From positions 1 to 41,176 of the forward strand of contig JAIOHV010000102.1 of NCBI GenBank assembly GCA_019912885.1: a stretch of 41,176 bases of DNA. The letters run 5' to 3'. Numbering within the stretch: the first letter of the stretch is position 1; every line of letters begins with the position of its first letter. Shown one piece after another: positions 8,046 to 31,643 of the stretch. The notes beneath the pieces are model-generated. The model was given only the letters and a program-made list of their open reading frames with translations, made no database searches and was not told where the DNA came from. Source of the stretch: a bacterium (GTDB taxonomy: Bacteria > Lernaellota > Lernaellaia > JACKCT01). The position numbers were made by a program, and so were the translations under genes.

Positions 8046-9119
8046 TCAGCGGTGCGCGGCCGGCGCCGGTGCGGGGTTTTCGGCGATGCCTTCGGATGGA
8101 CCCGCGTCCCACTTCGTGTGCGCCGGGAAATTTTTCACGAGCCAGCCCCACAGCAGATGCCCGTAGCCGACGCTCGGAAGGCCGATCGCGTCGAAGAACG
8201 GGCGCAGTTCGCGGTTGAGCTTTTTCAGGTTGTACATCGGCACCGTGGGGAAGTAGTGGTGCTCCAGGTGGAAGTTCGACCACACGAACAGGAAGTGCCA
8301 CACCGGGTTGCCGTCCACGCGCGTGCCCCACTTGGCCGGGTCGGCCGGATCGATCTCGTAATGCTGCCCCAGGCGATTCAGGATGAAGGCGATGGGAAAA
8401 AACACCGTCATCGGCACGAGATACGCGCGCGCCATCACGCCCCACCCGCCGGCAACGACAAGCAGCGCCGCGATCGCGAAATGCAGCGAGAAGTTCGCGA
8501 TGCGTTCGCGCCGGATACGCCGGCGAAGCTCCTGCGGATAAATCGCCGTCTCCGTCGCCGCCGCCTTCGCGTAGATGACGATGAGCGCGATCGTAAAATA
8601 GAGCGCCTTGTACCAGCGCGCGTTGAGCTTCGGAGACAGGTGCGCGCGCTTGGGATCGTCGATCTCGCTGCCGAGATTCGCGTGGTGATCCAGGTGCCAC
8701 CGCGTGAACTGCGAAGCGGAAATCGCGCTCGGAAACGAATACAGCAGCCCCAGGAACCGCTTGGCCTTCGGGTGCGGCTTCACGAAGATCGCGTTGTGAA
8801 GCTGCTCGTGCAATAGGATGATGAACCCCAGCACGGTGAATCCCTGAAGCGCCGCCGCGGGGATCCAGATGAGCGGGTTCGTGAACGTCCAGCACACCCA
8901 GCCAAGCAGGAACATCTGCGCGTAAAGCCGCCCGACGGTCAGAAAGTGCCGCCACGGGCGGATCTTCTGCAACGCGCGCACGCGCTCGGGCGGCACGTGC
9001 TCGCGAATGCGCGCAAGCACGTCACCGGAGTGCGCAAACCAGGTCTTTTCCTTCTCGTAATTCTTCGGCGCCGCCGCGAGGTTTTCGGCGGCGTTGGTGT
9101 CTTTTGTCGTGGCTTCCAT
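8046..9119 (-). CDS. Membrane fatty acid desaturase
   Basis: 357 residues, ATG 9119 behind GGGGA; an in-frame TTG one codon upstream is less likely. Three histidine boxes are present: HEQLH (about 104-108), HLDHH (142-146) and HLEHH (284-288), the di-iron ligand set of integral membrane acyl desaturases (PF00487). Hydrophobic segments around 68-102, 172-188, 212-250 and 274-282 fit the four-helix membrane topology. It should introduce a double bond into an acyl chain at the inner membrane, using O2 and an electron donor not encoded nearby. It is the first gene of a unit with the ceramidase-fold protein, so the substrate could be an N-acylated or sphingoid lipid rather than a phospholipid acyl chain, but that is inference from context. 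Confidence 0.9.
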   Translation of the reverse strand: MEATTKDTNAAENLAAAPKNYEKEKTWFAHSGDVLARIREHVPPERVRALQKIRPWRHFLTVGRLYAQMFLLGWVCWTFTNPLIWIPAAALQGFTVLGFIILLHEQLHNAIFVKPHPKAKRFLGLLYSFPSAISASQFTRWHLDHHANLGSEIDDPKRAHLSPKLNARWYKALYFTIALIVIYAKAAATETAIYPQELRRRIRRERIANFSLHFAIAALLVVAGGWGVMARAYLVPMTVFFPIAFILNRLGQHYEIDPADPAKWGTRVDGNPVWHFLFVWSNFHLEHHYFPTVPMYNLKKLNRELRPFFDAIGLPSVGYGHLLWGWLVKNFPAHTKWDAGPSEGIAENPAPAPAAHR

Positions 9120-9541
9120 CAAATCCCCGTTCCAACGGTCCTGGTTCGACGACCAACCTTTTATTATAAGGAACGCGCCCGCTTACGAAAAGGCGCCCCA
9201 CGCGCGCGGATTTTGCGTTCTCTGTGCGTTATCAATCGAATTGGAGCGATTGCCTCCCCCGTATCGCCTTTTGAGCGATAATGGCCGATAGATAGGTGTT
9301 GGCTCGCCGCCCGGCGCGCCGAGGGACGAGGTGCTAATCCCGCCGTTCTTTCCGGCGGCTTATGACGAACAACCCGCCCGCCGGGTCGAAAGGTTGGTAT
9401 TGCGAGGGAAACGACGAATTTTATTGAATTTTTGACGAAATTCCTGGCGATCCTGACAAAGCGGAGCCGGTGGTTACATTGCGTTGTGGCCGCAAAAAAA
9501 CGGCCGATCCGGCCATGAGCCGGGGGACGAAAGGGAGCAAG
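9120..9541. other. Divergent intergenic region between the desaturase and lon, with three GC hairpins
   Basis: 422 bp between divergent genes, so it must hold both promoters. Visible structure: an imperfect CTCG...CGAG dyad near 9303-9323, CCGCCG-N7-CGGCGG at 9340-9358, and ACCCG-N5-CGGGT at 9372-9386. The half-site GTGCTAA at 9331-9337 has no CIRCE partner. No clear sigma-70 or heat-shock promoter could be assigned. No gene seen. Confidence 0.45.
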
Positions 9542-11902
9542 ATGTTCTTCGACGAAAACAAACACCCGAAAAACCTGCCCGTTCTGGCGCTTCGGAATGC
9601 GGTCCTGTTCCCGAACGCGATCGCGCCGATGGCCGTCGGACGGAAATTTTCGCTCGCCGCGATCGAAGCGGCGCAGGAAGCCGACGGCTTCATTGCCATC
9701 TTCACGCAACGCGATCCGAAGGTCGAAAATCCCGCGGGCGAAGATCTGCACGCCTTCGGAACGCTCGCCAAGATCCTGAAGGTCATGGACGAGCGTTCCA
9801 GTTCGACGCAGACCGTCCTTTTGCAGGGCCTCGCCCGCATCCAGGGCACCGAGTTTTCCGCGTACACGCCGCACATGCGCGTGGACGTGGATTATCCCCT
9901 CGAAACGCCCGTGATCGATGCCGAGGTCGAGGCGCTCGCCAAAAAGACCAAGGAGCTGGCGCTCCAGGTCATCCAGCTTTCGCCGAACATCCCCGGCGAG
10001 GCGCGCCAGTTCGTGGACGAGATGCAGGAGATCGGACCGCTTTGCGACCTCATCGCCGCCAACATGTCGATCCCCGTCGACGAACGCATCGCCATCCTCG
10101 AAACGCTCGACATCAAGGCGCGCTGCCGACGCATCATCCGCCTGCTCAATACCGAGCTTGAGATGCTGCGCGTCAAAAAACGCATCGACGAGGAAATCCG
10201 CGGCGAGCTCGACCGCAACCAGAAAGAGTTCTACCTGCGCAAGCAGATGGACGCGATCCGCAAGGAACTCGGCGACGACGACGGCGCGGAATCCGACATC
10301 GACGATTTCCGAAAGCGCATCGACGAGGCCGAACTGCCCAAGGACGCCCTCGACGTCGCCGAACGCGAGCTGAAGCGCCTGCAACGCATTCCTCCCTCGA
10401 GCCCCGAGCACACGGTCAGCCACACCTATCTCGAGTGGATTCTCGACCTCCCGTGGAACGAGGAGACGGAAGACCACATCGACCTCAAGGAGGCCGAGAA
10501 GATCCTCGACGAGGATTCCTACGGCCTGGAGAAAGTGAAGCGGCGCATCCTCGAATATCTCGCGGTACGCAAGCTCAAGCCCGGCATGAAGGGACCGATC
10601 CTGTGCCTCGTCGGCCCTCCGGGCGTCGGCAAGACCTCGCTCGGAAGCAGCGTCGCCCGATCCATGGGACGCAAGTTCTATCGCATGAGCCTCGGTGGCC
10701 TGCACGACGAGGCCGAAATCCGCGGCCATCGGCGCACCTACATCGGCTCCATGCCCGGCCGCATCCTGCAGACGATGAAAAAGGTCGGCGTACGCAATCC
10801 CGTTTTCGTCCTCGACGAACTCGACAAGGTCGGCGCGGACTTCCGGGGCGATCCTTCAAGCGCGCTTCTCGAAGTCCTGGACCCGGAGCAGAACTTCGCG
10901 TTCTCCGACAACTACCTGCAAATCCCGTTTGACCTGTCGAAGGTGCTGTTCATCGGAACGGCCAACCGCATGGATACCGTCCCGCCCGCGCTGCGCGACC
11001 GCCTGGAGGTCATCGAGATCCCCGGTTACACCACCGAGGAAAAGATGATCATCGCGCGCCAGCACCTCATCAAGCAGGAACTCGAAAACCACGGCCTGAC
11101 TGCCGAGCAGATCGAGATCACCGACGACGCGCTCGCCCGGCTCATCGATCACTACACGCACGAGGCCGGTGTTCGCGAGCTCAAGCGCAACATCGCTTCG
11201 ATCTGCCGCGCCGGCGCGCGCATCATCGCCGGCGGCGAGGCCGAACACGTGCAGGTAACCGGCGAGAAGGTCGGCGATATCCTGGGCGCCGAGCGTTATT
11301 ACCCCGAGGTCGCCGAACGCACGAGCGTCACAGGCGTCGCGACCGGCATGGCCTGGACGCCCGCCGGCGGCGACATCCTGTTCATCGAGGCCAGCATGAT
11401 GAAAGGCAAGGGCAACCTCATCCTCACCGGCAAGCTCGGAGAGGTCATGCAGGAGTCCGCCAAGGCCGCGCTGTCCTACATCCGAAGCAAGGCCGAGGAT
11501 TTCAACATCGATCCGCAGGTCTTCCAGGATTACGACATCCACATCCACATCCCCGCCGGCGCCATCGGCAAGGACGGACCGAGCGCCGGCATCACCCTGC
11601 TCGCGGCGCTTGCGTCGCTTCTCACCGGACGCAAGGTCAACGCCGACATGGCGATGACCGGAGAGGTCACGCTGCGCGGCCAGGTTCTCCAGGTCGGCGG
11701 CATCAAGGAAAAAATCCTCGCCGCCAAACGCGCGGGCATCAAGCGAATCCTCCTGCCCGAGAAAAACCGCAAGGACCTGCTTGAGATTCCCGAAAGGCTG
11801 CGCGCGGGTGTGGAGTTCCACTTCATCAACAACATCGACGAGGCGCTCGCCAGCGCCCTCGAGGCCGTCGCCCCGCCGCCCCCGGCGCCCGGAGCGAACT
11901 GA
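9542..11902 (+). CDS. lon: ATP-dependent protease Lon
   Basis: 786 residues, normal bacterial Lon length. ATG 9542 is chosen because GGGAG lies 4 nt upstream; in-frame starts at 9470 and 9515 lack a comparable site. The N-terminal substrate-binding domain opens with N-L-P-V-L-A-L-R-N-A-V-L-F-P. Walker A GPPGVGKT is at 358-365, with Walker B V-F-V-L-D-E-L-D-K-V after it. The protease domain has D-G-P-S-A-G with Ser681 and Lys724, 43 residues apart as in E. coli Lon (Ser679/Lys722). Lon is a cytoplasmic AAA+ hexamer that degrades misfolded and selected regulatory proteins. The gene stands alone and ends at a strong terminator at 12015. Nothing looks abnormal. Confidence 0.98.
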   Translation: MFFDENKHPKNLPVLALRNAVLFPNAIAPMAVGRKFSLAAIEAAQEADGFIAIFTQRDPKVENPAGEDLHAFGTLAKILKVMDERSSSTQTVLLQGLARIQGTEFSAYTPHMRVDVDYPLETPVIDAEVEALAKKTKELALQVIQLSPNIPGEARQFVDEMQEIGPLCDLIAANMSIPVDERIAILETLDIKARCRRIIRLLNTELEMLRVKKRIDEEIRGELDRNQKEFYLRKQMDAIRKELGDDDGAESDIDDFRKRIDEAELPKDALDVAERELKRLQRIPPSSPEHTVSHTYLEWILDLPWNEETEDHIDLKEAEKILDEDSYGLEKVKRRILEYLAVRKLKPGMKGPILCLVGPPGVGKTSLGSSVARSMGRKFYRMSLGGLHDEAEIRGHRRTYIGSMPGRILQTMKKVGVRNPVFVLDELDKVGADFRGDPSSALLEVLDPEQNFAFSDNYLQIPFDLSKVLFIGTANRMDTVPPALRDRLEVIEIPGYTTEEKMIIARQHLIKQELENHGLTAEQIEITDDALARLIDHYTHEAGVRELKRNIASICRAGARIIAGGEAEHVQVTGEKVGDILGAERYYPEVAERTSVTGVATGMAWTPAGGDILFIEASMMKGKGNLILTGKLGEVMQESAKAALSYIRSKAEDFNIDPQVFQDYDIHIHIPAGAIGKDGPSAGITLLAALASLLTGRKVNADMAMTGEVTLRGQVLQVGGIKEKILAAKRAGIKRILLPEKNRKDLLEIPERLRAGVEFHFINNIDEALASALEAVAPPPPAPGAN

Positions 11903-22467: not shown

Positions 22468-22852
22468 AAACAGCGTCGAAGATCGGTCGATCCATTGGGG
22501 GAATTCTTCCGCCGTTCGTCAAGCGCGCACTTCGCGCATCCGGCGGGAATCGGGGTCAGCGGCAAAACATGACCGCTTTCAATCAGCACGAAACGCCCGG
22601 CACGACGGCGCATGTTCGCGCCCCCGGCTCGACGCCCATTTTTTTGACTCGCTTGTCGGGATTTATTCGCAACAAGCAGCCCCGGCGCGCGGCATCGGTT
22701 TTGACCGCCGCCGGCGTTCTTTTTCGGCATGTTCTATCGAGACTAAGTCGCAATATTATTTCGCGCTCTTGTCGCGACAGAGTTTCAATAATCGCGAAAT
22801 TCCTGGCCCAAGCCGTGATCTTGACCGGCGACCCCTCTATTTTTCTGACTTC

Positions 22853-22876
22853 TTATCGGGATCAAGTTTCGATAAT
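22853..22876 (+). promoter_or_regulatory. Dyad TTATCG-N11-CGATAA overlapping a -10-like GATAAT
   Basis: Perfect 6-bp inverted repeat, 31 nt before the fur start. Its right arm overlaps GATAAT (22871-22876), a good -10 hexamer. A Fur-family autoregulatory operator is plausible, but it does not match the classic Fur box. Confidence 0.4.
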
Positions 22877-22906
22877 GACACCTGTTCCTGAACCCGGAGG
22901 ATGTGC

Positions 22907-23422
22907 GTGAGCGCCCAGGAAACCTTTGATTCGATCGACAACGTGATCGCGCCGGGGAGCGTCGATCCAATCGATCGTTTCAAGGAATACCTCGCCAAAC
23001 GCAGCCTGCGCATGACGCGCGAGCGGCGCATCCTCGTGGAAGAGATTTTCAACGGCCAGCACCATTTCACGGTATCCGATCTATGCGAGCGCCTGGTCGC
23101 CGCGGGCTTGCGCGGGGCGAGCCGTTCGACGGTTTACCGCGCCATCCCGCACCTTCTGGACGCGGGCCTCATCTTCGAGGTGTCGCTGAAAAGCGGCAAC
23201 GAGGAGCAGGTCTACGAAAACACGCTCGTGCCGCGCCACCACGACCACCTGACCTGCGAGAAGTGCGGCGAGGTGATCGAGTTCGACAACGAGGCGATCC
23301 ACGAGATGCGCGAGCACGTCGCCCGCAAATACGGCTACATGCTGCGGCGCCACGTCCTGCACCTGCGCGGCATCTGCGCGCGCTGCCAGGAGGGGCTCTC
23401 GCCCGAGGAGATGGAATCGTGA
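22907..23422 (+). CDS. fur: Fur-family metal-responsive repressor
   Basis: 171 residues from GTG 22907. The ATG six bases upstream abuts GGAGG directly, so GTG with 6-nt spacing is the better start. Winged helix: T-R-E-R-R-I-L-V-E-E-I, then H-F-T-V-S-D-L, then S-R-S-T-V-Y-R-A-I-P-H-L as recognition helix. The dimerisation half has H-H-D-H-L-T-C-E-K-C-G and, near the end, C-A-R-C, forming the structural Cys4 zinc site, with His residues for the regulatory metal. Placement at the head of feoAB argues for iron-responsive Fur rather than Zur or PerR. It should repress this operon, including itself, when Fe(II) is plentiful. Its stop overlaps the next start (GTGA). Confidence 0.92.
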   Translation: MSAQETFDSIDNVIAPGSVDPIDRFKEYLAKRSLRMTRERRILVEEIFNGQHHFTVSDLCERLVAAGLRGASRSTVYRAIPHLLDAGLIFEVSLKSGNEEQVYENTLVPRHHDHLTCEKCGEVIEFDNEAIHEMREHVARKYGYMLRRHVLHLRGICARCQEGLSPEEMES

Positions 23423-23640
23423 CGCGCCGCGACGCCGATACCGACCTGCGCTGCCGCGATTGCCACAAGCTCATTGCGCGCCTCGACGGCGACTGCGTCG
23501 TCGTCCGGTGCGCCCGGTGCAAGTCGGAAATCCGGCTCGCCATTACGACGGAATCAACGCGCGGAAAAAATCCGCGCTCTTCGGCCGTCCCGGGCGCGAG
23601 CGCGCGCGGGCGGAACACGGGCCAGGGGCCCTGGAGTTAA
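23419..23640 (+). CDS. Small Com-like zinc-ribbon protein between fur and feoA
   Basis: 73 residues from GTG 23419, overlapping the fur stop as GTGA. The N-terminal 40 residues form a zinc ribbon: L-R-C-R-D-C-H-K-L-I-A and V-V-R-C-A-R-C-K-S-E-I, two CxxC knuckles about 16 residues apart, close to the phage Mu Com family (R-C-x-x-C-x-K-L...I-K-C-P-R-C). The last ~30 residues are low-complexity and basic. Com proteins bind RNA and activate translation; in this position it could bind the feo transcript or sense metal. Position and coupling suggest it is real, but role is inference. Confidence 0.72.
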   Translation: MTRRDADTDLRCRDCHKLIARLDGDCVVVRCARCKSEIRLAITTESTRGKNPRSSAVPGASARGRNTGQGPWS

Positions 23641-23642
23641 CC

Positions 23643-23906
23643 ATGCAAGCTCTCATCACCGCCGCGACATCCACCTTGACCCTCCGCCAGTGCAAGCGCG
23701 GCGAGCGCGTGCGCATCGTCGGCCTGGCCGGCGCCGGCCCGATCCGCCGCCGCCTGATGGAGATGGGCTTCCTGCCCGGCGCCACCGTCGAGGTCCGCCG
23801 CTTCGCGCCGCTGGCCGATCCGATCGAGTTCGTCCTGCGCGCAAGCCACGTGTCGCTGCGCAAGGCCGAAGCCGAGATGATCACCGTGGAGCGGTTCGCC
23901 AACTAG
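23643..23906 (+). CDS. feoA: FeoA, SH3-like accessory protein of ferrous iron transport
   Basis: 87 residues, ATG 23643 with GGAG 6 nt upstream. FeoA/SH3-like signs: T-L-R-Q-C-K-R-G-E-R-V-R-I-V-G-L, R-R-R-L-M-E-M-G-F-L-P-G-A-T-V-E-V, D-P-I-E-F-V-L-R and L-R-K-A-E-A-E-M-I-T-V. Cytoplasmic partner of FeoB, thought to modulate its activity. It begins 2 nt after the zinc-ribbon stop and is followed by feoB 11 nt later. Confidence 0.95.
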   Translation: MQALITAATSTLTLRQCKRGERVRIVGLAGAGPIRRRLMEMGFLPGATVEVRRFAPLADPIEFVLRASHVSLRKAEAEMITVERFAN

Positions 23907-23917
23907 GCGCGCGCGCG

Positions 23918-26125
23918 ATGGCTTCTCCTCTCGTGACCCCCGCCCCCGCGAGCGCGGCCACCGCGGCCAAACCGCTGCGCATCGCCCTGTGCGGCAATCC
24001 GAACTCCGGCAAGACGACCGTCTTCAACGCGATGACGGGATCCTGGCAGAAGGTCGGGAACTGGCCGGGCGTCACCGTGGAGAAGAAGGAAGGCCGGTGC
24101 ACATTCGAAGGTCGAGCGATCCACGTGGTCGATCTGCCCGGCACGTACAGCCTGTCGCCGTACACGATCGAGGAGATCGTCGCGCGCAATCATTTGCTCG
24201 ACGACCGCCCGGACGTGATCGTGCAGGTCGTCGACTCCACGAACCTGGAGCGGAACCTCTACTACACGACGCAGCTTCTCGAACTCGGCATGCCGCTCGT
24301 CCTGGCGATGAACGTGTACGACGAGTTCGAAAAATCGGGCGCTCGGCTTGATCTTGCGCTCCTGGCCGCGCGGCTTTCGGTCCCGGTCGTCACGACGGTC
24401 GGCATCCGCGGCAAGGGGATCAAGGAATTGCTCGCGGCGTGCGTGAAACGGGCCGAGGCCAGGGACGCCCCCCGTCCCGCGTCGGTTGACTACGGCCTCG
24501 ACCTCGAGGTGCAGATCAAGAGCATCGAGGATTCCGCGAGTCTCGCGGGATTGCAGGAGAGCGGTTTCGATCGCCCCACGCGCTGGACGGCCGTGAAGCT
24601 GCTCGAAAACGACACCGATGTCGAAAATCGCCTTTCCACGACGGCCAACGGAGAGTGGAAGGACATCGCGGGCGCCGCCGAGGCCGCGCGCCGGTTTGTC
24701 GCCGACGAGTTCCAGGACGAGCCGCAGATGGTGCTTGCGCAACGGCGCTACGCGTTCATCGGCCGCGTGCTCGACGAGGTGTACGAGGCACCCGTCGATC
24801 AGCCCCGCCGCATCACCGACCGGATCGACGCCGTCCTGACGCACCGGCTGTTCGGCCTGCCGTTTTTCTTCTTCGTGATCTGGGCGATGTTCCAACTCAC
24901 CTTTACGGTCGGCTCGTATCCGCAGGACTGGATCGACGCGGGCGTCGCGTGGCTTGGCGAGGGCATCACGACAATCATGGGCGCGGGCTTCTATCGCGAT
25001 CTCATCGTGGAGGGCGCGCTGAACGGCGTCGGCTTCGTCATCGTGTTCCTGCCAAACATCCTCATCCTGTTTTTCTGCATCAGCCTGATCGAGGACACCG
25101 GCTACATGGCGCGCGCCGCGTTCCTGATGGACCGCGTGATGCGTTCGGTGGGTTTGCAGGGGAAATCGTTCATCCCGATGCTGATGGGATTCGGCTGCAA
25201 TGTTCCCGCGATCATGGGAACGCGCGTGCTGCCGACCGAGCGCGACCGCCTGCTCACCATGATGGTCAATCCGCTGATGTCCTGCTCCGCGCGCCTTCCC
25301 GTTTATATCCTGCTCGCGGGAACGTTCTTCGCCGCCGAATGGGCCGGCACCGTCATCTTCAGCATGTACGCGCTTGGCATCGGCTTGGCGATCTTCATCG
25401 CGCTGCTGTTTTCGCGCACGATCCTTCGCGGCGAGTCGTCGCCGTTCGTCATGGAGCTGCCCCCGTATCGCGTCCCCACGCTTCGCGGCTGCGCGATCCA
25501 GATGTGGGATCGCGGCAAGATCTTCCTCAAGAAGATGAGCACCGTCATCCTCATCGGATCGGTGACCGTCTGGACGCTCTCCTATTTCCCGCGCCACGCG
25601 GATGAAACGGCCGTCGCCGATGCCGGATTCGTCGCGGTCAACGCCGCCGCGGCGGTCGGCGAAACGGACGATCTCGCCGATGCCGGCGCCGCCGAACCGG
25701 TCGCCGAGACGGAGCGCGACATGGGAGAGAGCTATCTGGCGGGCATCGGCCGCGCGCTCGATCCGATCTTCGCGCCGCTCGGCTTCGACTGGCAGACGAA
25801 CGTCGCGATCCTGACCGGCTTTGTCGCGAAAGAGATCGTGGTGTCGACCTACGGCGTCATCTACCAGGTCGGCGACGAGGTGGACGAAACGAGCCAGGCG
25901 CTGCGCAACAAGCTGGCGTCATCGAGCGCGCTCACGCCGTTGACGGCGCTCGCGCTCATGGCGTTTGTCCTCATCTACACGCCGTGCCTGGGCACGATGG
26001 CGGCGATCCGCCGCGAAACGCAGTCCTGGAAATGGACGCTGTTTTCCATCGGCTATTCAATGCTGCTCGCGTATGCCGTCGCGTTCACGATCGTCCACGG
26101 CGGCCGGCTGCTGGGGTTTGCATGA
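23918..26125 (+). CDS. feoB: FeoB, ferrous iron transport GTPase/permease
   Basis: 735 residues from ATG 23918. N-terminal G domain: G1 GNPNSGKTT at 26-34, G3 D-L-P-G-T-Y-S-L-S-P-Y near 71-81, G4-like M-N-V-Y-D near 131-135. A helical GDI-like region follows, then the membrane part from about 305 with two Gate segments; G-F-G-C-N-V-P-A-I-M-G-T-R is present with its pore Cys. Between helices near residues 560-610 lies an acidic, Ala-rich loop (D-E-T-A-V-A-D-A-G to A-E-T-E-R-D) that is longer than usual. It imports Fe(II) across the inner membrane. It lacks its own clear ribosome site and is probably translationally coupled to feoA. Confidence 0.97.
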   Translation: MASPLVTPAPASAATAAKPLRIALCGNPNSGKTTVFNAMTGSWQKVGNWPGVTVEKKEGRCTFEGRAIHVVDLPGTYSLSPYTIEEIVARNHLLDDRPDVIVQVVDSTNLERNLYYTTQLLELGMPLVLAMNVYDEFEKSGARLDLALLAARLSVPVVTTVGIRGKGIKELLAACVKRAEARDAPRPASVDYGLDLEVQIKSIEDSASLAGLQESGFDRPTRWTAVKLLENDTDVENRLSTTANGEWKDIAGAAEAARRFVADEFQDEPQMVLAQRRYAFIGRVLDEVYEAPVDQPRRITDRIDAVLTHRLFGLPFFFFVIWAMFQLTFTVGSYPQDWIDAGVAWLGEGITTIMGAGFYRDLIVEGALNGVGFVIVFLPNILILFFCISLIEDTGYMARAAFLMDRVMRSVGLQGKSFIPMLMGFGCNVPAIMGTRVLPTERDRLLTMMVNPLMSCSARLPVYILLAGTFFAAEWAGTVIFSMYALGIGLAIFIALLFSRTILRGESSPFVMELPPYRVPTLRGCAIQMWDRGKIFLKKMSTVILIGSVTVWTLSYFPRHADETAVADAGFVAVNAAAAVGETDDLADAGAAEPVAETERDMGESYLAGIGRALDPIFAPLGFDWQTNVAILTGFVAKEIVVSTYGVIYQVGDEVDETSQALRNKLASSSALTPLTALALMAFVLIYTPCLGTMAAIRRETQSWKWTLFSIGYSMLLAYAVAFTIVHGGRLLGFA

Positions 26126-26137
26126 ACTTGATACGAA

Positions 26138-26289
26138 CCGCGACCGTCAGGGAGCGGGTTTCGCGCCTACGAACCGTACGCTTACGAACCGCGACCGTGA
26201 GGGAGCGGGTATGCCGAACTGGGGTTCGGCGTTCCCAGGCCGGAACCGCGAGAGCTTGTCCTGAGCGCGAGCGAAGGATCAGGGAGCGG
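26138..26289 (+). repeat. Cluster of GA hairpins with one CCTGGGA-family hairpin, after feoB
   Basis: GA hairpins at 26138-26157 (loop GTCA) and 26189-26208 (loop GTGA). A composite lies at 26246-26289: outer CCGC-GA...GA-GCGG enclosing inner TCCT-GA-GC-GCGA-GC-GA-AGGA. Between them 26213-26239 is GCCGAAC-TGGG-GTTCGGC followed by GTTCCCAGG, an inverted CCTGGGA-type element. The cluster separates feoB from its Cys-rich partner. Confidence 0.85.
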
Positions 26290-26297
26290 GTATTCGC

Positions 26298-26468
26298 ATG
26301 ATCGACCATGAAGTCCTGACCGGCATCGTCATCGTCGCGGGCGCGCTCTTGCTGGTCGTCCGCCAGGTGCGCCGCGAACTGACGGAAAAGCCGGAAAGCG
26401 CGTGCGGCTCCGGTTGCACGGGCTGCCCGGTGGCCGGGAAGGAGCCCGGAACAGAGCCGCGACCGTAA
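26298..26468 (+). CDS. FeoB-associated Cys-rich single-pass membrane protein
   Basis: 56 residues: ATG 26298 to TAA 26466-26468. One N-terminal helix (L-T-G-I-V-I-V-A-G-A-L-L-L-V-V) is followed by basic R-Q-V-R-R and then a Cys motif A-C-G-S-G-C-T-G-C-P. This is the standard layout of the small FeoB-associated Cys-rich proteins (PF12669 type) that sit beside feoB and may handle iron or redox at the membrane. GGGAG lies 10-14 nt upstream within the repeat. The final codons E-P-R-P and the stop come from a GA-hairpin repeat at 26457-26476. Confidence 0.85.
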   Translation: MIDHEVLTGIVIVAGALLLVVRQVRRELTEKPESACGSGCTGCPVAGKEPGTEPRP

Positions 26469-26566
26469 GGGAGCGGGCGGTTACGCGCTATCGATTCGCG
26501 TGTTCGCGCCGCATGAAACAGAGCCGCGAGAGCTTGTCCTGAGCGCAAGCGAAGGATCAGGGAGCG
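26457..26566 (+). repeat. Two GA hairpins after the Cys-rich gene
   Basis: 26457-26476 reads CCGC-GA-CC-GTAA-GG-GA-GCGG, a true GNRA loop, and contains the TAA stop of the small gene. A composite at 26523-26566 encloses TCCT-GA-GC-GCAA-GC-GA-AGGA. No gene in 26469-26664. Confidence 0.85.
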
Positions 26567-26664
26567 GGTGAGAACGAAAAGCAATCAACGAGGCCGGAGG
26601 TCTTGAACCCGGAGCCCGGACGCCGACACGCGGCATTCGGGCTTCCGCCATTTTGGAGTCGAAT

Positions 26665-27219
26665 TTGTCCGACCAGAAAAACACTCTGTACGACGCGCCG
26701 CTCGCGACGAAAATTGCGTGGACGTTTTTTCTCGTCTTCACGCTCGCCGCGCTCGCGTTTTCGGTCTGGCGCGTCACGGATGCCGGAACCGCGACCGCGC
26801 GCGGCATCGGCGCGACCTACGGCGCCGAGCCGATCGACCTGGAATCGAACGAGACGCCGGCCGCCGGTCCCACGCTGGACCTGCCCGACGATCCCGCGAT
26901 GATCGCCCGCCCCGCGCGCTCAAAGGGCGAGATGATCGTCGTCGCGCACGTGCACGCCTTCATGATCCCGGCCGTTCTGTATCTGGTCACCCTGATTTTT
27001 TTACGCGCGGGGCTCGCCTCGTCGCTGAACGTCATGACGATCGTCATCGCCAACCTCGCCGTGGCGATCGACCTGTCGTCGATCGGACTCGTGCGCTACG
27101 TCTCCACCGCGTTCGCGCCGCTGGTGATGGTGGGCGGCATCGCGATGACGGGATCGTTCCTGTTCATGATCGGCGCGGCGCTCATCGCCATCTGGCACGC
27201 GCCGGGGGAGGAATCATGA
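26665..27219 (+). CDS. Four-helix inner-membrane protein with HxH motif, in the feo operon
   Basis: 184 residues from TTG 26665, chosen because GGAG lies 6 nt upstream; a TTG at 26653 is the next option. Topology: helix 1 about residues 14-36 (I-A-W-T-F-F-L-V-F-T-L-A-A-L), a ~50-residue periplasmic loop rich in Pro and acidic residues, then three helices (about 92-115, 120-140, 147-175). The second helix begins V-A-H-V-H-A-F-M-I-P-A-V-L-Y-L; in-membrane His residues spaced like this could ligate heme or metal. No family is recognised with certainty. Its stop overlaps the FMN-binding gene start (ATGA), so the two products are probably partners, perhaps passing electrons to the flavin. Confidence 0.75.
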   Translation: MSDQKNTLYDAPLATKIAWTFFLVFTLAALAFSVWRVTDAGTATARGIGATYGAEPIDLESNETPAAGPTLDLPDDPAMIARPARSKGEMIVVAHVHAFMIPAVLYLVTLIFLRAGLASSLNVMTIVIANLAVAIDLSSIGLVRYVSTAFAPLVMVGGIAMTGSFLFMIGAALIAIWHAPGEES

Positions 27220-27806
27220 ACCGCCGCCTCGCCGCGTTTGTCCTGGCCCTGGCGCTTTTCGCGCCCGCCTCGGCGCGCGCGAAAGACGAGCCGGCCGACG
27301 AAAAGCGCCCGCCGGCCAGCGAACACGTTTACCTCACGCGCGAAAAGGCGCTCGCCGGGTTTTTTCCGGATGCCGAAAAAATCGGCTACGAGCGCAAGAC
27401 GCTCACCGGCGCGCAGGCTGCCCAATTCCGGAAGGATCTGGGCTACGCCCCGCCGCGCCTGGATTACGTCGTGTATATCGCGACCAAAAACGGCAAGCGC
27501 GCGGGATACGCGCTGATCGATAACGAGCTTGGCAAATACGAGATGATCACCTTTGCCGTCGCCGCCGGAACCGACGGGCGCGTCGCCGACAGCGCGGTGA
27601 TGGTGTATCGCGAGGAAATCGGCCACCAGGTGAAGGAGCCGATGTTCCTCGAACAGTTCAAGGGCAAGGGGACCGATGCGCCCCTTCGCCTCGGCCGCGA
27701 CGTGAACGGCATTTCCGGCGCGACCGTTTCCAGTCGATCCATCGCGCGCGGCATCCGACGCGCGTTGTGGCTCATCAACACGTTTTACCCAACCGAGGAG
27801 AGATAA
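27216..27806 (+). CDS. Exported FMN-binding domain protein (RnfG/NqrC-like)
   Basis: 196 residues, ATG 27216 overlapping the previous stop. Sec signal 1-22 (hydrophobic F-V-L-A-L-A-L-F, cleavage A-R-A). The domain fits PF04205: G-Y-A-L-I-D-N-E-L-G-K-Y-E-M-I-T-F and, at 162-174, D-V-N-G-I-S-G-A-T-V-S-S-R-S, where Thr170 of SGAT is the residue that ApbE-type transferases flavinylate in this family. No ApbE is in the window. Periplasmic covalent-flavin proteins carry electrons; next to FeoB and a 4-TM protein the simplest reading is reduction of Fe(III) to Fe(II) for uptake. No CxxCH heme motif is present. Function inferred from domain and neighbours. Confidence 0.85.
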   Translation: MNRRLAAFVLALALFAPASARAKDEPADEKRPPASEHVYLTREKALAGFFPDAEKIGYERKTLTGAQAAQFRKDLGYAPPRLDYVVYIATKNGKRAGYALIDNELGKYEMITFAVAAGTDGRVADSAVMVYREEIGHQVKEPMFLEQFKGKGTDAPLRLGRDVNGISGATVSSRSIARGIRRALWLINTFYPTEER

Positions 27807-27808
27807 AC

Positions 27809-29071
27809 ATGGGAGTGCTTGTGAGGAGTGCGGTCGCCCTGGCCGCGATACTGATTTTCGCGTCGGTGGCGGTCGCCCAGCCGACGATGGACCTGCCACC
27901 GGAGGAGGCGCCGCCCGAGGTGGGGCTGGACCTGTCGAAGGTGCGTATCGGCGGCTACGGCGAGTTGCACTACACGAACGCGGAGAAGGAAGTCGCGGAG
28001 CTCGACCTGCACCGCTTCGTGCTCTACTTCGGCTACCGCTACGACGACATCTGGACCTTCCACTCGGAGCTCGAGGTCGAACACGCCGTCACCGGCGGCG
28101 ACGAGCCGGGCGAGGTCGAGATGGAGCAGGCGTTCGTCGACGCGCGCTTTTTTCCGGAGCTTGGCCTGTCCGCGGGTGTCATGCTGATCCCGCTTGGCAT
28201 CATCAATCAGCGTCACGAGCCGCCGACGTTCAACGGCGTCGAGCGCCCGGAATACCACCGCGTCATCATCCCCACGACCTGGTGGGAGGGCGGCGGACGC
28301 CTGTACGGCGATGTCGGTCACTGGATGAGCTGGCAGGTGCTCGGCACATCGTCGTTTGACGCCATGGGCTTTTCGCCGGCTTCCGGCGTGCGCGGCGGGC
28401 GGCAGAAGGTCGCCGAGGCCAAGGCCGAGTCGATGGCCGTCACCGGCCGCGTCGATATCCATCCGTTCACCGACCTGAACCTGGGCCTCGCCGCGTTCCA
28501 CGGCGGCACCGATCAGATCGGCGGGTTCGGCTGGCCGGTTACGATCCTCGCCGGCGACCTGACCGCGAAGGCGCTCGGATTCGAATTGCGCGCCGAGGGC
28601 GCGCTCGTGCAGATTCCCGAGGCTGAGGAGATCAACGACGCGATCGCCGACGCCGCCGCCGCGGCAGCCGCGGCCGAAGCGGAAGGGAAGTCCGCCGCCT
28701 TCGCGGATCCCGACGCGCTTCCGTTCAAATTCGGCGAGGCGGCGGCCGCCGCCGCCGCGGGCGGAGCGCCGGGCGTGCCCGAGTCCTATTACGGCTTCCT
28801 GGCCGAACTCGGATTCGACACCCTGACGTTCTTCGACACGACGCACGTCCTCAACATCTTCGGCCGTTACGAGCGCATCGACCTGAACGCGAGCGTCCCG
28901 GACCCGTTCGAGGAATCCGACGCGCTGCGTTATTCGGTCGTCACCGCGGGACTGACGTACAAGCCGATCTCCAACATCGCCTTCAAGGTCGACCAGCAGT
29001 GGACCACCACCGACGAAAAAGACGCCGAAGCCCTCAAGGCGTTCCACGCGGGCGTCGGTTACATGTTCTGA
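27809..29071 (+). CDS. Outer-membrane beta-barrel porin
   Basis: 420 residues, ATG 27809 with GGAG 8 nt upstream, 2 nt after the FMN gene stop. Signal peptide ends A-V-A-Q. The barrel starts I-G-G-Y-G-E-L-H-Y and continues with D-L-H-R-F-V-L-Y-F-G-Y-R, E-L-E-V-E-H, E-V-E-M-E-Q-A-F-V-D, R-H-E-P-P-T-F-N-G-V-E-R-P and I-I-P-T-T-W-W-E-G-G; the chain ends G-V-G-Y-M-F with the terminal Phe used for BAM recognition. This is a phosphate-selective-porin-like/OprO-P-like family. An Ala-rich segment (about 287-330) is probably a periplasmic or surface loop. Placed last in the feo operon it may admit ferrous iron or small iron complexes across the outer membrane; substrate not shown. Confidence 0.85.
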   Translation: MGVLVRSAVALAAILIFASVAVAQPTMDLPPEEAPPEVGLDLSKVRIGGYGELHYTNAEKEVAELDLHRFVLYFGYRYDDIWTFHSELEVEHAVTGGDEPGEVEMEQAFVDARFFPELGLSAGVMLIPLGIINQRHEPPTFNGVERPEYHRVIIPTTWWEGGGRLYGDVGHWMSWQVLGTSSFDAMGFSPASGVRGGRQKVAEAKAESMAVTGRVDIHPFTDLNLGLAAFHGGTDQIGGFGWPVTILAGDLTAKALGFELRAEGALVQIPEAEEINDAIADAAAAAAAAEAEGKSAAFADPDALPFKFGEAAAAAAAGGAPGVPESYYGFLAELGFDTLTFFDTTHVLNIFGRYERIDLNASVPDPFEESDALRYSVVTAGLTYKPISNIAFKVDQQWTTTDEKDAEALKAFHAGVGYMF

Positions 29072-29148
29072 GCCTTCGTTCGGGGGCGCGCGAGCGATCG
29101 CGCCCCCCCCTGGGCATTCAAGACCAACAGCCCATCCGCACGTTGCGG

Positions 29149-29177
29149 AAACGCGTCCGAGAGGGCGCGTTTTTTTT
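29149..29177 (+). terminator. Rho-independent terminator of the iron operon
   Basis: AAACGCGTCC-GAGA-GGGCGCGTTT (one G.T pair) followed by a T-run to 29177; 78 nt after the porin stop. Confidence 0.9.
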
Positions 29178-29405
29178 GAAAGCATCACAACAAAAAGCCG
29201 TGGCGTCCCACGAATTTTCGGCGCGCGCATCTCGCATCCGGCGACGCGACGGCGACGGGCGCCCGGCCGGGTCCAGGGCGCAACGATCGATATTCGCTCG
29301 CGAATTCGCCGCGCTTGACATTCGCGGCACGCAAGTTGCTCATAGGGACCGGCAAGCGGCGGCCATGTGCGCCGCGATCGGGTTCACAACAAGGAGGCTT
29401 TGGCC
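29178..29405. other. Leader region of the small Cys-rich lipoprotein
   Basis: No gene. TTGACA at 29315-29320 is a perfect -35 hexamer, but no good -10 lies 16-18 bp downstream. GGAGG at 29391-29395 serves the next gene. Confidence 0.4.
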
Positions 29406-29798
29406 ATGAGGAATCCGAATTCATTCGTCTACGCCCTTTTTGCGTTTCTGTTTTTGATCGCGGCCGTCGGCCTTTCCGCCGCCTGCGGCGACGACGACGA
29501 TGACGATGACGATGACGACGACGACAATGACGACGACGCGGACGACGACGACGATGACGCGGACGATGACGACGATGACGACGAGTGCACCGCGGAAGAC
29601 GCTTGCGGCGAGCTGGTCGCTTGCGACGTTTACGACGACGTTCAGTTCTGCGCCCAGGCCATCGTTTCCGATTGCCTGGATACCGAAGGGAGTGAGCGGA
29701 TCGTCGATTGCATGTGCGAGTGCACCGCCAATGCGACAACCTGCGAAGAAACCGAGGCCTGCCTGGAACCGTGCGTCAGCGCCTGCTGGGAGGAATGA
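29406..29798 (+). CDS. Small lipoprotein: poly-Asp spacer plus 12-Cys domain
   Basis: 130 residues, ATG 29406 with AAGGAGG 8 nt upstream. Signal peptide with lipobox L-S-A-A-C, Cys27. Residues about 29-58 are almost all Asp. The remaining ~70 residues hold 12 Cys in an acidic context (E-C-T-A-E-D-A-C-G-E-L-V-A-C and M-C-E-C-T-A-N-A-T-T-C), enough for six disulfides. No known family recognised. The acidic spacer probably lifts the disulfide-rich domain off the membrane, and could itself bind Ca2+ or other cations. It is a single-gene unit: a terminator lies on each side, the second at 29862. Confidence 0.85.
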   Translation: MRNPNSFVYALFAFLFLIAAVGLSAACGDDDDDDDDDDDDNDDDADDDDDDADDDDDDDECTAEDACGELVACDVYDDVQFCAQAIVSDCLDTEGSERIVDCMCECTANATTCEETEACLEPCVSACWEE

Positions 29799-29892: not shown

Positions 29893-29960
29893 GGATGGTT
29901 TGAAAAAACCATGCACGACCGGTATTGTCATCGAGTTCACATCATCCATGGGAGCGCCGC

Positions 29961-31643
29961 ATGTTACGTTTCATGAAGTTATTCTGGACGATTGTGCTGG
30001 CCGTCGGCGTGTTCGCCTTCGCCCATGCGGAGGAAAGCAAGGACTGCCACACGCTGATGGGGACGTTTGAGTACGACGGTTCGTCGCACTTCGACGACAC
30101 GCCGACCGCGTTTCGCCACGCAGGCGACACGCTCGCGATGGCCGGGTGGACGGCGAAGAACGACGCGGCTTCGGACGCCGACGGCTTTGTTTCGCTGTGG
30201 CGGCCGTTTTCCAAGGAAACGAAGATTTCGACGGAGTGGGACGGCCCCGCCGCCGGGTTCGACTCCTTCAACGACGCCTGGCTCGACCCGACGCTGCCCG
30301 CCGGCCCATTTGCCGCCGCGGGGTATTCGTCGAACACGGGCACCGGCGGCGATTTCACGCTCGTGATTTTCGACGAGGACGGCACGCCCGTGAAGGAAGA
30401 TCTGTTCGACGCGGGCGCGTCCGGCGAGGACTGCGCGTTCGCGGTGACGCGGTCTGGCGACGCGCTCTACGCGGTGGGATACGGAACGCCCGGCGGACAG
30501 GCGCACGTGGACTGGCTTGTCATCAAATACGATCTCTCGGGCAATCGCCTGTGGGAACGCACGTACGCGGGCGAAACCGCGGGCCACGACGTCGCCCGCA
30601 AGGTCGCGCCCGATGGCGAAGGCGGCATTATCGTGGGCGGCGAGACGTGGGGGCCGACCGGGCCGCGTCTGACGGGCGTGCAATGGAATAGCGGCGGAAA
30701 CGTCGTGCGCAGCGGCGTTTTGCAGCCGCCCGTCGGCACGACGCGCACGGTGGTGACGAACATCGTGGTGGTGGACGAAACGATTCTCATCGGCGGAAAC
30801 TACCACGGCGCCAACGACGCCTTCATCTCGTCCGACGCCCAAACGATCGACGCATCGCGCGCGGCGGGCTCCTTCAACCCGGACTTGTCCCCGGGCGCGC
30901 TCGAACAAACGGTCCTGGAGAGTTTCGCCGACGGCTCGGTCCCCACGATGGATCTGGCGACGTTCGCCTTCAACCCCCCGGACGTGACCGCCCCGGCCAA
31001 GGGACCGGACCAGGAGACGCTCGTTGAGGCGTACGACGCATCGGGCACGTCCGCGTGGTATGGGACTTGGGACCCGTCCGACCAGGGGTTGCTTGGCGTC
31101 ATCAACACGTTCGACGACAACGGCGACGTGCTTTTCGCCGGCGGGCACACGATCGACGGCGACGGCACGACGCGGGCGGCGCTGCTTTATTTCGATCACA
31201 CGGATTGGGACCAGGCCAAGCGCACCTTCGTCTTACCGCACTTTCTCGAAGTGTCGGGCAAGATCACCGACACGCAGAACACCTTCGACACCACGGTGTT
31301 CGTCCAGTACACGCCCGATCTTTCGGGAATCGGCGACGACGACGACGACGATGCCGATGACGACGATGCCGGCGACGACGACATGGATCCCATCGAATAC
31401 CTGGCCGGCGCGATCCGGTTCAAGGGGCCGGATTCGGCCTTTTTCGACATCCAGCTCTTCTTGCTCTCCCTCGACTGCCCGCCGGGCGACGATGACGACG
31501 ACGCGGACGATGACGATGCCGTCGACGATGACGACACGGCCGACGACGACGACGCGAACGACGACGGGAACGACGACGATGACGACGATGACAAAGGCGA
31601 CGATGACGACGACGACGACGGCTGTGGAGGTTGCGGCTGCTGA
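29961..31643 (+). CDS. Secreted propeller-like protein with Asp-rich tail ending in a Cys cluster
   Basis: 560 residues, ATG 29961 with GGGAG 6 nt upstream. Sec signal (F-W-T-I-V-L-A-V-G-V-F-A-F-A-H-A) without lipobox. Residues about 30-430 carry degenerate beta-propeller-like repeats (W-L-V-I-K-Y-D-L-S-G-N-R-L-W-E-R-T-Y, then G-G-I-I-V-G-G), like bacterial SBBP/delta-60-type repeats. An Asp-rich block near 460, a ~40-residue folded insert, and a second Asp-rich block (about 512-553) follow. The chain ends G-C-G-G-C-G-C. This parallels the G-G-G-C-C-G-G end of the FG-GAP protein at 15652-18027. Probably displayed at the cell surface; function unknown. Confidence 0.75.
   Translation: MLRFMKLFWTIVLAVGVFAFAHAEESKDCHTLMGTFEYDGSSHFDDTPTAFRHAGDTLAMAGWTAKNDAASDADGFVSLWRPFSKETKISTEWDGPAAGFDSFNDAWLDPTLPAGPFAAAGYSSNTGTGGDFTLVIFDEDGTPVKEDLFDAGASGEDCAFAVTRSGDALYAVGYGTPGGQAHVDWLVIKYDLSGNRLWERTYAGETAGHDVARKVAPDGEGGIIVGGETWGPTGPRLTGVQWNSGGNVVRSGVLQPPVGTTRTVVTNIVVVDETILIGGNYHGANDAFISSDAQTIDASRAAGSFNPDLSPGALEQTVLESFADGSVPTMDLATFAFNPPDVTAPAKGPDQETLVEAYDASGTSAWYGTWDPSDQGLLGVINTFDDNGDVLFAGGHTIDGDGTTRAALLYFDHTDWDQAKRTFVLPHFLEVSGKITDTQNTFDTTVFVQYTPDLSGIGDDDDDDADDDDAGDDDMDPIEYLAGAIRFKGPDSAFFDIQLFLLSLDCPPGDDDDDADDDDAVDDDDTADDDDANDDGNDDDDDDDKGDDDDDDDGCGGCGC

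Follow-up and report, generated by a model that had tools for sequence, protein, structure and literature searches.

An eight-gene block runs from fur through feoAB to a flavin protein and a porin

The analysed DNA (a stretch of 41,176 nucleotides, referred to here as the window) carries eight genes on one strand and in a single direction, encoding a Fur-family regulator, a zinc ribbon protein, FeoA, FeoB, a Cys-rich small protein, a membrane protein with four predicted helices and a His pair (4-TM HxH protein), an FMN-binding protein and a porin-like protein (Table 1). All eight were found at coordinates essentially as given in an earlier note on this DNA, and the gene overlaps described there were borne out, with GTGA at 23419 linking fur to the zinc ribbon gene and ATGA at 27216 linking the 4-TM gene to that of the FMN-binding protein. 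Folding also confirmed the single strong terminator after the porin gene (placed at 29149 in that note) as a 12-pair stem with a 4-base loop that ends in a U run, which a pattern scan had missed. The 4-TM gene is called here from 26653, with the earlier start near 26664 being possible as well, and an alternative in-frame ATG for fur lies at 22901.

Table 1. Features of the gene block in the window, and the Fur-FeoA fusion genes of two relatives
Feature	Position	Strand	Remarks
Operator-like 21-bp palindromes, fur upstream region	22654..22874	+	Consensus WRTMGVGAYNNAGTYKCRATW; copies at 22735-22755, 22770-22790 and 22854-22874 (exact) and 22654-22674 (2 mismatches)
fur, Fur-family metal regulator	22907..23422	+	GTG start; PF01475, 82.3 bits
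Com-like zinc ribbon, 73 aa	23419..23640	+
feoA	23643..23906	+	PF04023, 78.2 bits
feoB, 735 aa, predicted Fe(II) importer	23918..26125	+	TIGR00437, 621 bits (cut-off 316)
Dispersed repeat copies	26132-26159, 26183-26210, 26451-26478; also 26243-26291, 26521-26569		AACCGCGACCGTNAGGGAGCGGG
FeoB-associated Cys-rich small membrane protein	26298..26468	+	PF12669, 27.9 bits (cut-off 27)
4-TM HxH membrane protein	26653..27219	+	Family without profile match
FMN-binding protein, RnfG-like, predicted periplasmic	27216..27806	+	PF04205, 30.2 bits (cut-off 22)
Porin-like protein, putative outer-membrane, 420 aa	27809..29071	+	Signal-peptide-like start; strand-rich model
Intrinsic terminator	29147..29174	+	Fold of 29145-29178: -18.1 kcal/mol, z = -4.3
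Fur-FeoA fusion in relatives	L014:3613-4428; L015:11478-12302

The fur product matched through its FUR domain only and reached no NCBIfam cut-off, and its metal specificity is accordingly left at family level. Profile searches revealed the FeoB_N, FeoB_Cyto, Gate and FeoB_C domains in the feoB product, with FeoA encoded alongside. The PF12669 margin of the Cys-rich protein is narrow, and its assignment is backed by the same gene position in two relatives of the window genome, G001 and G002. The zinc ribbon, whose CxxC...CxxC arrangement is kept in three genera, matched the PHROG family gpCom (E 3e-4), and its G001 orthologue scored 24.1 with the Mu Com profile PF10122 (cut-off 22.9), the window copy staying below that cut-off. 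In each of the three genomes, such a phage-Mu-Com-like zinc ribbon is encoded after fur and ahead of the next feo gene; because Com is a translational regulator, post-transcriptional control of the iron operon by this protein is possible by analogy.

The apparently exported FMN-binding protein contains the flavinylation motif NGISGATVS (DGI[ST]GATIS in its orthologues), which fits [ST]GA[ST]-x-[ST], and scores weakly with the rnfG profile TIGR01947 (35.5 bits, cut-off 102). The window genome encodes ApbE outside the block, apparently as one gene whose parts lie on contigs C35 and C40, and has one further FMN_bind gene, while in G001 (99% complete) the FMN protein of the block is the only FMN_bind match and a single ApbE is present. 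The model of the porin-like protein is strand-rich and of low confidence (pLDDT 45). Its GYGELHY and HEPPTFNGVERP motifs are common to same-position relatives in Nitrospirota, and other members of the porin family at that position match BBP2/Porin_O_P; the window porin yielded no clear profile match, and its profile no meaningful match to PDB sequences.

Outside the block, exported-looking proteins with long poly-Asp stretches are encoded at 29367-29798 and 29925-31643, and also in another member of the phylum (L067:7310-8284 and 9148-10179).

Gene order is conserved across three genera

The phylum sample comprised seven genomes, three of which (the window genome, G001 and G002) represent the window's family, each from a different genus. 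All eight genes occur in identical order in these three at a protein identity of 35-61%, which rules out chance adjacency and upholds the earlier description of one transcription-unit-like block in an iron context. Both relatives have a ninth gene, absent from the window, that encodes a Fur-FeoA fusion between the zinc ribbon and feoA. The G002 porin gene is frameshifted in the assembly (L042 from about 9100-9320 onward; L014 8392-8555 on the same contig), reflecting either a sequencing error or a pseudogene.

Elsewhere in the phylum, three genomes have a Feo cluster that lacks the triplet of 4-TM, FMN-binding and porin genes: that of G003 includes Fur and a Fur-FeoA fusion, those of G005 and G006 a DtxR-FeoA fusion and the Cys protein. 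A profile search of G004 revealed no FeoB over the cut-off. These triplet-free clusters suggest that the triplet was probably added to a pre-existing Feo operon in the window's family. Fusion of FeoA-like domains to metal regulators is a recurrent pattern in its own right, with Fur-FeoA fusions found in G003 and L148 as well, and DtxR-FeoA fusions in G005, G006 and Scalindua.

In the window, copies of a repeat that is dispersed through the genome enlarge the interval from feoB to the 4-TM gene (26126-26652). With at most one mismatch, AACCGCGACCGTNAGGGAGCGGG occurs 147 times in the window genome, twice in the sister genus G001, and not at all in G002 or the control, and by these counts the repeat is recently expanded; a second repeat form of 49 nt shares the terminal AGGGAGCGGG. 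The 184 bp with dispersed repeats between the Cys and 4-TM genes might in turn indicate two independent units, in which a Feo operon would end after the Cys-rich gene and the 4-TM, FMN-binding and porin genes would be transcribed separately. We hold this arrangement to be quite improbable, given that contiguity is conserved at 35-61% identity, that the corresponding gaps in the relatives measure only about 100-130 bp and lack the dispersed repeats (the entire span from feoB to the 4-TM gene being only about 300-350 bp there, Cys gene included), and that the window interval contained no consensus promoter in a pattern scan and no special fold (z about 0).

Palindromes in the fur upstream region

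The palindromic dyad upstream of fur recurs at the fur promoters of both relatives, G001 and G002, where, read by eye, it overlaps the -10 region. Exact matches to WRTMGVGAYNNAGTYKCRATW in the three family genomes fall only at these fur promoters. Since the consensus was derived from these very sites, the meaningful test is that three promoters share it, and not its score in the window. We infer that the Fur-family protein binds these palindromes. A regulon search of the three genomes placed the other, one-mismatch sites in or near unrelated genes, and no wider regulon is claimed.

The 4-TM HxH protein belongs to a family spread over bacteria

The 4-TM protein had no match in Pfam, NCBIfam or PHROG, its profile had no meaningful match among PDB sequences, and a Foldseek search with its model returned no relative (best E 3.7). 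The model contains transmembrane-length helices at 17-44, 91-118, 124-149 and 152-182, with the HxH pair near the start of the second. In the family alignment, His99 is present in 51 of 51 members and His101 in 50. On an inside-positive reading, the HxH pair would lie at the periplasmic face, as helix 2 is preceded by a long acidic loop and followed by positive residues. A third His, 13 residues further along the same helix, is found in 27 of the 51 and is absent from the window's family, Scalindua and others. This spacing is close to that of di-heme cytochrome b helices, and the partial distribution of the third His would allow two hemes in about half of the family and fewer in the copy of the window.

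In a profile search (E<=0.001), 52 of 386 genomes, from across the bacteria, had members of the 4-TM family, and scanning named genomes added members in Scalindua, Nitrospirae and Hainich groundwater, whereas a scan of viral contigs with the protein found nothing. PepSY, MsrQ, DsbD, NqrB/RnfD and NapH-like families were all absent from the Pfam matches of 26 members at E<=1. Identity with DUF4405 was considered and rejected, there being no Pfam match in 26 members, an hhalign probability of 0.2% and four helices instead of six. A divergent, longer 4-TM paralogue, without flavin or iron-uptake neighbours, occurs in five phylum members (L124:3861-4583 on G000 contig C203, L125, L126, L067 and L070).

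The triplet accompanies several kinds of iron importer

The surroundings of 51 confident 4-TM loci were scored with profiles up to a limit of 6.5 kb, FMN_bind being counted with a profile free of FMN-ApbE fusions. FMN_bind genes lay near 40 of these loci (39 on the same strand), porin genes near 34, ApbE genes near 24 and an iron-uptake gene near 18. The canonical flavinylation motif was present in 31 of 44 candidate FMN genes and a GST variant in three. Five FMN_bind-like genes (L050, L051, L055, L060 and L105), four of which adjoin a BBP2-type porin gene, have lost the SGAT motif, and their products therefore probably carry no covalent flavin.

At the 18 iron-linked loci, the importer gene was feoB in nine, FTR1 in five, VIT1-like in three and a TonB receptor in one. 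The feoB-linked loci belong to the window's family, to f32 (G035, G182 and G317, with DtxR), to G364, and to L046 and L047 (with Fur). The FTR1-linked loci are those of G076, G217, G346, G294 and G062 (with FtrD-like and MacB/FtsX genes, P19-like), and in G053 an FTR1 gene lies just beyond the 6.5-kb limit. The VIT1-like genes accompany a DtxR-FeoA fusion in three Scalindua, the one scanned scoring 24.6 with PF01988, just under the cut-off of 28.1, and the TonB receptor gene is that of G079. Fur or DtxR regulators adjoin both the feoB-linked and the VIT1-linked loci. Many genomes in which the module lies away from feoB carry FeoB elsewhere; the FTR1-linked genomes of f73, G053 and G294 had no FeoB over the cut-off.

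With feoB near only 9 of the 51 loci, the triplet is found mostly away from it, and the earlier view of these genes as a part of Feo does not stand. The proposed link to iron does, in that the triplet travels with FTR1, VIT1-like and TonB-receptor genes as well, but it is not specific to Feo. By its neighbourhoods, the triplet is thus a separate, iron-linked candidate redox module, found across bacteria, that joined Feo in the window's family. In a tree of 48 4-TM proteins, feoB linkage requires about three changes, at least two of which are forced by well-supported branches, and FTR1 linkage about four. If each genome is taken to have one feoB and the lineages to be independent, a nearby feoB in 4 of 33 other lineages would arise by chance with a probability of roughly 1e-5.

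No recognised iron importer was found near the remaining 33 of the 51 loci and flavinylation has many redox roles (PMC8238504), so that the triplet might alternatively be a general flavin electron outlet, serving respiration or an extracellular or periplasmic acceptor and lying beside iron genes only sometimes. The triplet has separately become linked to FeoB, FTR1 and VIT1-like importers as well as to iron regulators, which makes this unlikely in our view, and no recurring respiratory oxidoreductase was noticed when the neighbourhoods were read by eye.

A proposed route from Fe(III) to FeoB

The simplest account of these data is an assimilatory iron-reduction cassette that serves varied importers, and FeoB in the window. 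We consider it probable that the block forms one iron-regulated operon combining the Feo Fe(II) importer with such a portable module. Small Fe(III) complexes would enter via the porin, while the 4-TM protein would take electrons from membrane quinol and deliver them at the periplasmic face near the HxH pair, perhaps via heme b and as a homodimer. The electrons would pass to FMN, attached by ApbE to the Thr of SGAT as the motif and the ApbE gene suggest, and the reduced flavin would turn Fe(III) into Fe(II) for import by FeoB, a family whose function in Fe(II) import is established elsewhere. When metal is sufficient, the Fur-family protein would bind the upstream palindromes and so repress all genes of the unit. 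In other genomes, the module would serve FTR1, VIT1-like or TonB-receptor importers.

The direction of electron flow cannot be read from sequence, and FTR1-type importers in other systems make use of the oxidation of iron, which leaves a very small chance that the flow is reversed, the module oxidising periplasmic Fe(II) or redox-balancing envelope thiols or FeoB partners. Iron oxidation beside FeoB would, however, be self-defeating, as FeoB imports Fe(II). Moreover, ApbE-dependent flavoproteins are known as outward electron carriers (PMC8238504).

Beyond the assimilatory reading of the block, we tentatively propose, at somewhat less than an even chance, that the 4-TM HxH proteins constitute a new family of small electron-transfer proteins of the membrane, which in many phyla would supply covalent flavins with electrons for reducing iron. 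They would probably be homodimeric and either contain one or two heme b or lack heme and have a metal or quinol site instead, and together with a dedicated porin would form a portable ferric-reductase cassette joined separately to FeoB, FTR1 and VIT1-like importers. For diderm bacteria, it is largely unsettled which Fe(III) reducers act ahead of import by Feo, and the triplet offers a testable candidate. It comprises a 4-TM family whose His pair is near-invariant, a putatively flavinylated partner and a porin, and occurs in about one in eight of the genomes sampled.

Comparison with known systems

The FMN-binding protein shares its FMN_bind domain and SGAT-type motif with the RnfG/NqrC subunits, but is a stand-alone, apparently exported protein encoded outside any Rnf/Nqr complex. 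The block resembles FeoAB operons with a PF12669 partner in having feoA, feoB and the Cys-rich gene in order under a Fur-family gene, whereas it runs on into the 4-TM, FMN-binding and porin genes and contains a Com-like zinc ribbon. The earlier judgement that this is not a standard Feo operon agrees with the literature searched, in which no paper contained both 'FeoB' and 'flavinylated' and no link between FeoB and flavinylation was reported; most subscription papers lay outside that search, and the novelty is provisional.

The DUF4405 and FezC cytochromes, associated with flavins and ferrosomes (PMC11334425), are likewise small membrane proteins with conserved His residues and with flavin and iron-transport gene neighbours, and action as a homodimer has been proposed for FezC. 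In comparison with these cytochromes as described, the 4-TM protein has no DUF4405 profile relation, four helices instead of six and a near-invariant HxH pair.

A further parallel comes from Meheust et al. 2021 (PMC8238504), who already reported flavinylation close to the VIT1 and P19/FTR1 iron systems; in that work, PepSY-, MsrQ- and DUF3570-containing clusters with VIT1, and P19-FTR1 clusters with FMN_bind, some of them Fur-controlled, were interpreted as serving assimilatory iron reduction. Those clusters and the present block have in common an ApbE-type FMN protein inside an iron-uptake gene cluster. In the present block, however, the importer is FeoB, which has 0 mentions in the text of that paper, the partner is an undescribed 4-TM HxH protein, and a porin belongs to the recurring set. 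The reported link between flavinylation and iron transport would thereby extend from VIT1 and FTR1 to FeoB.
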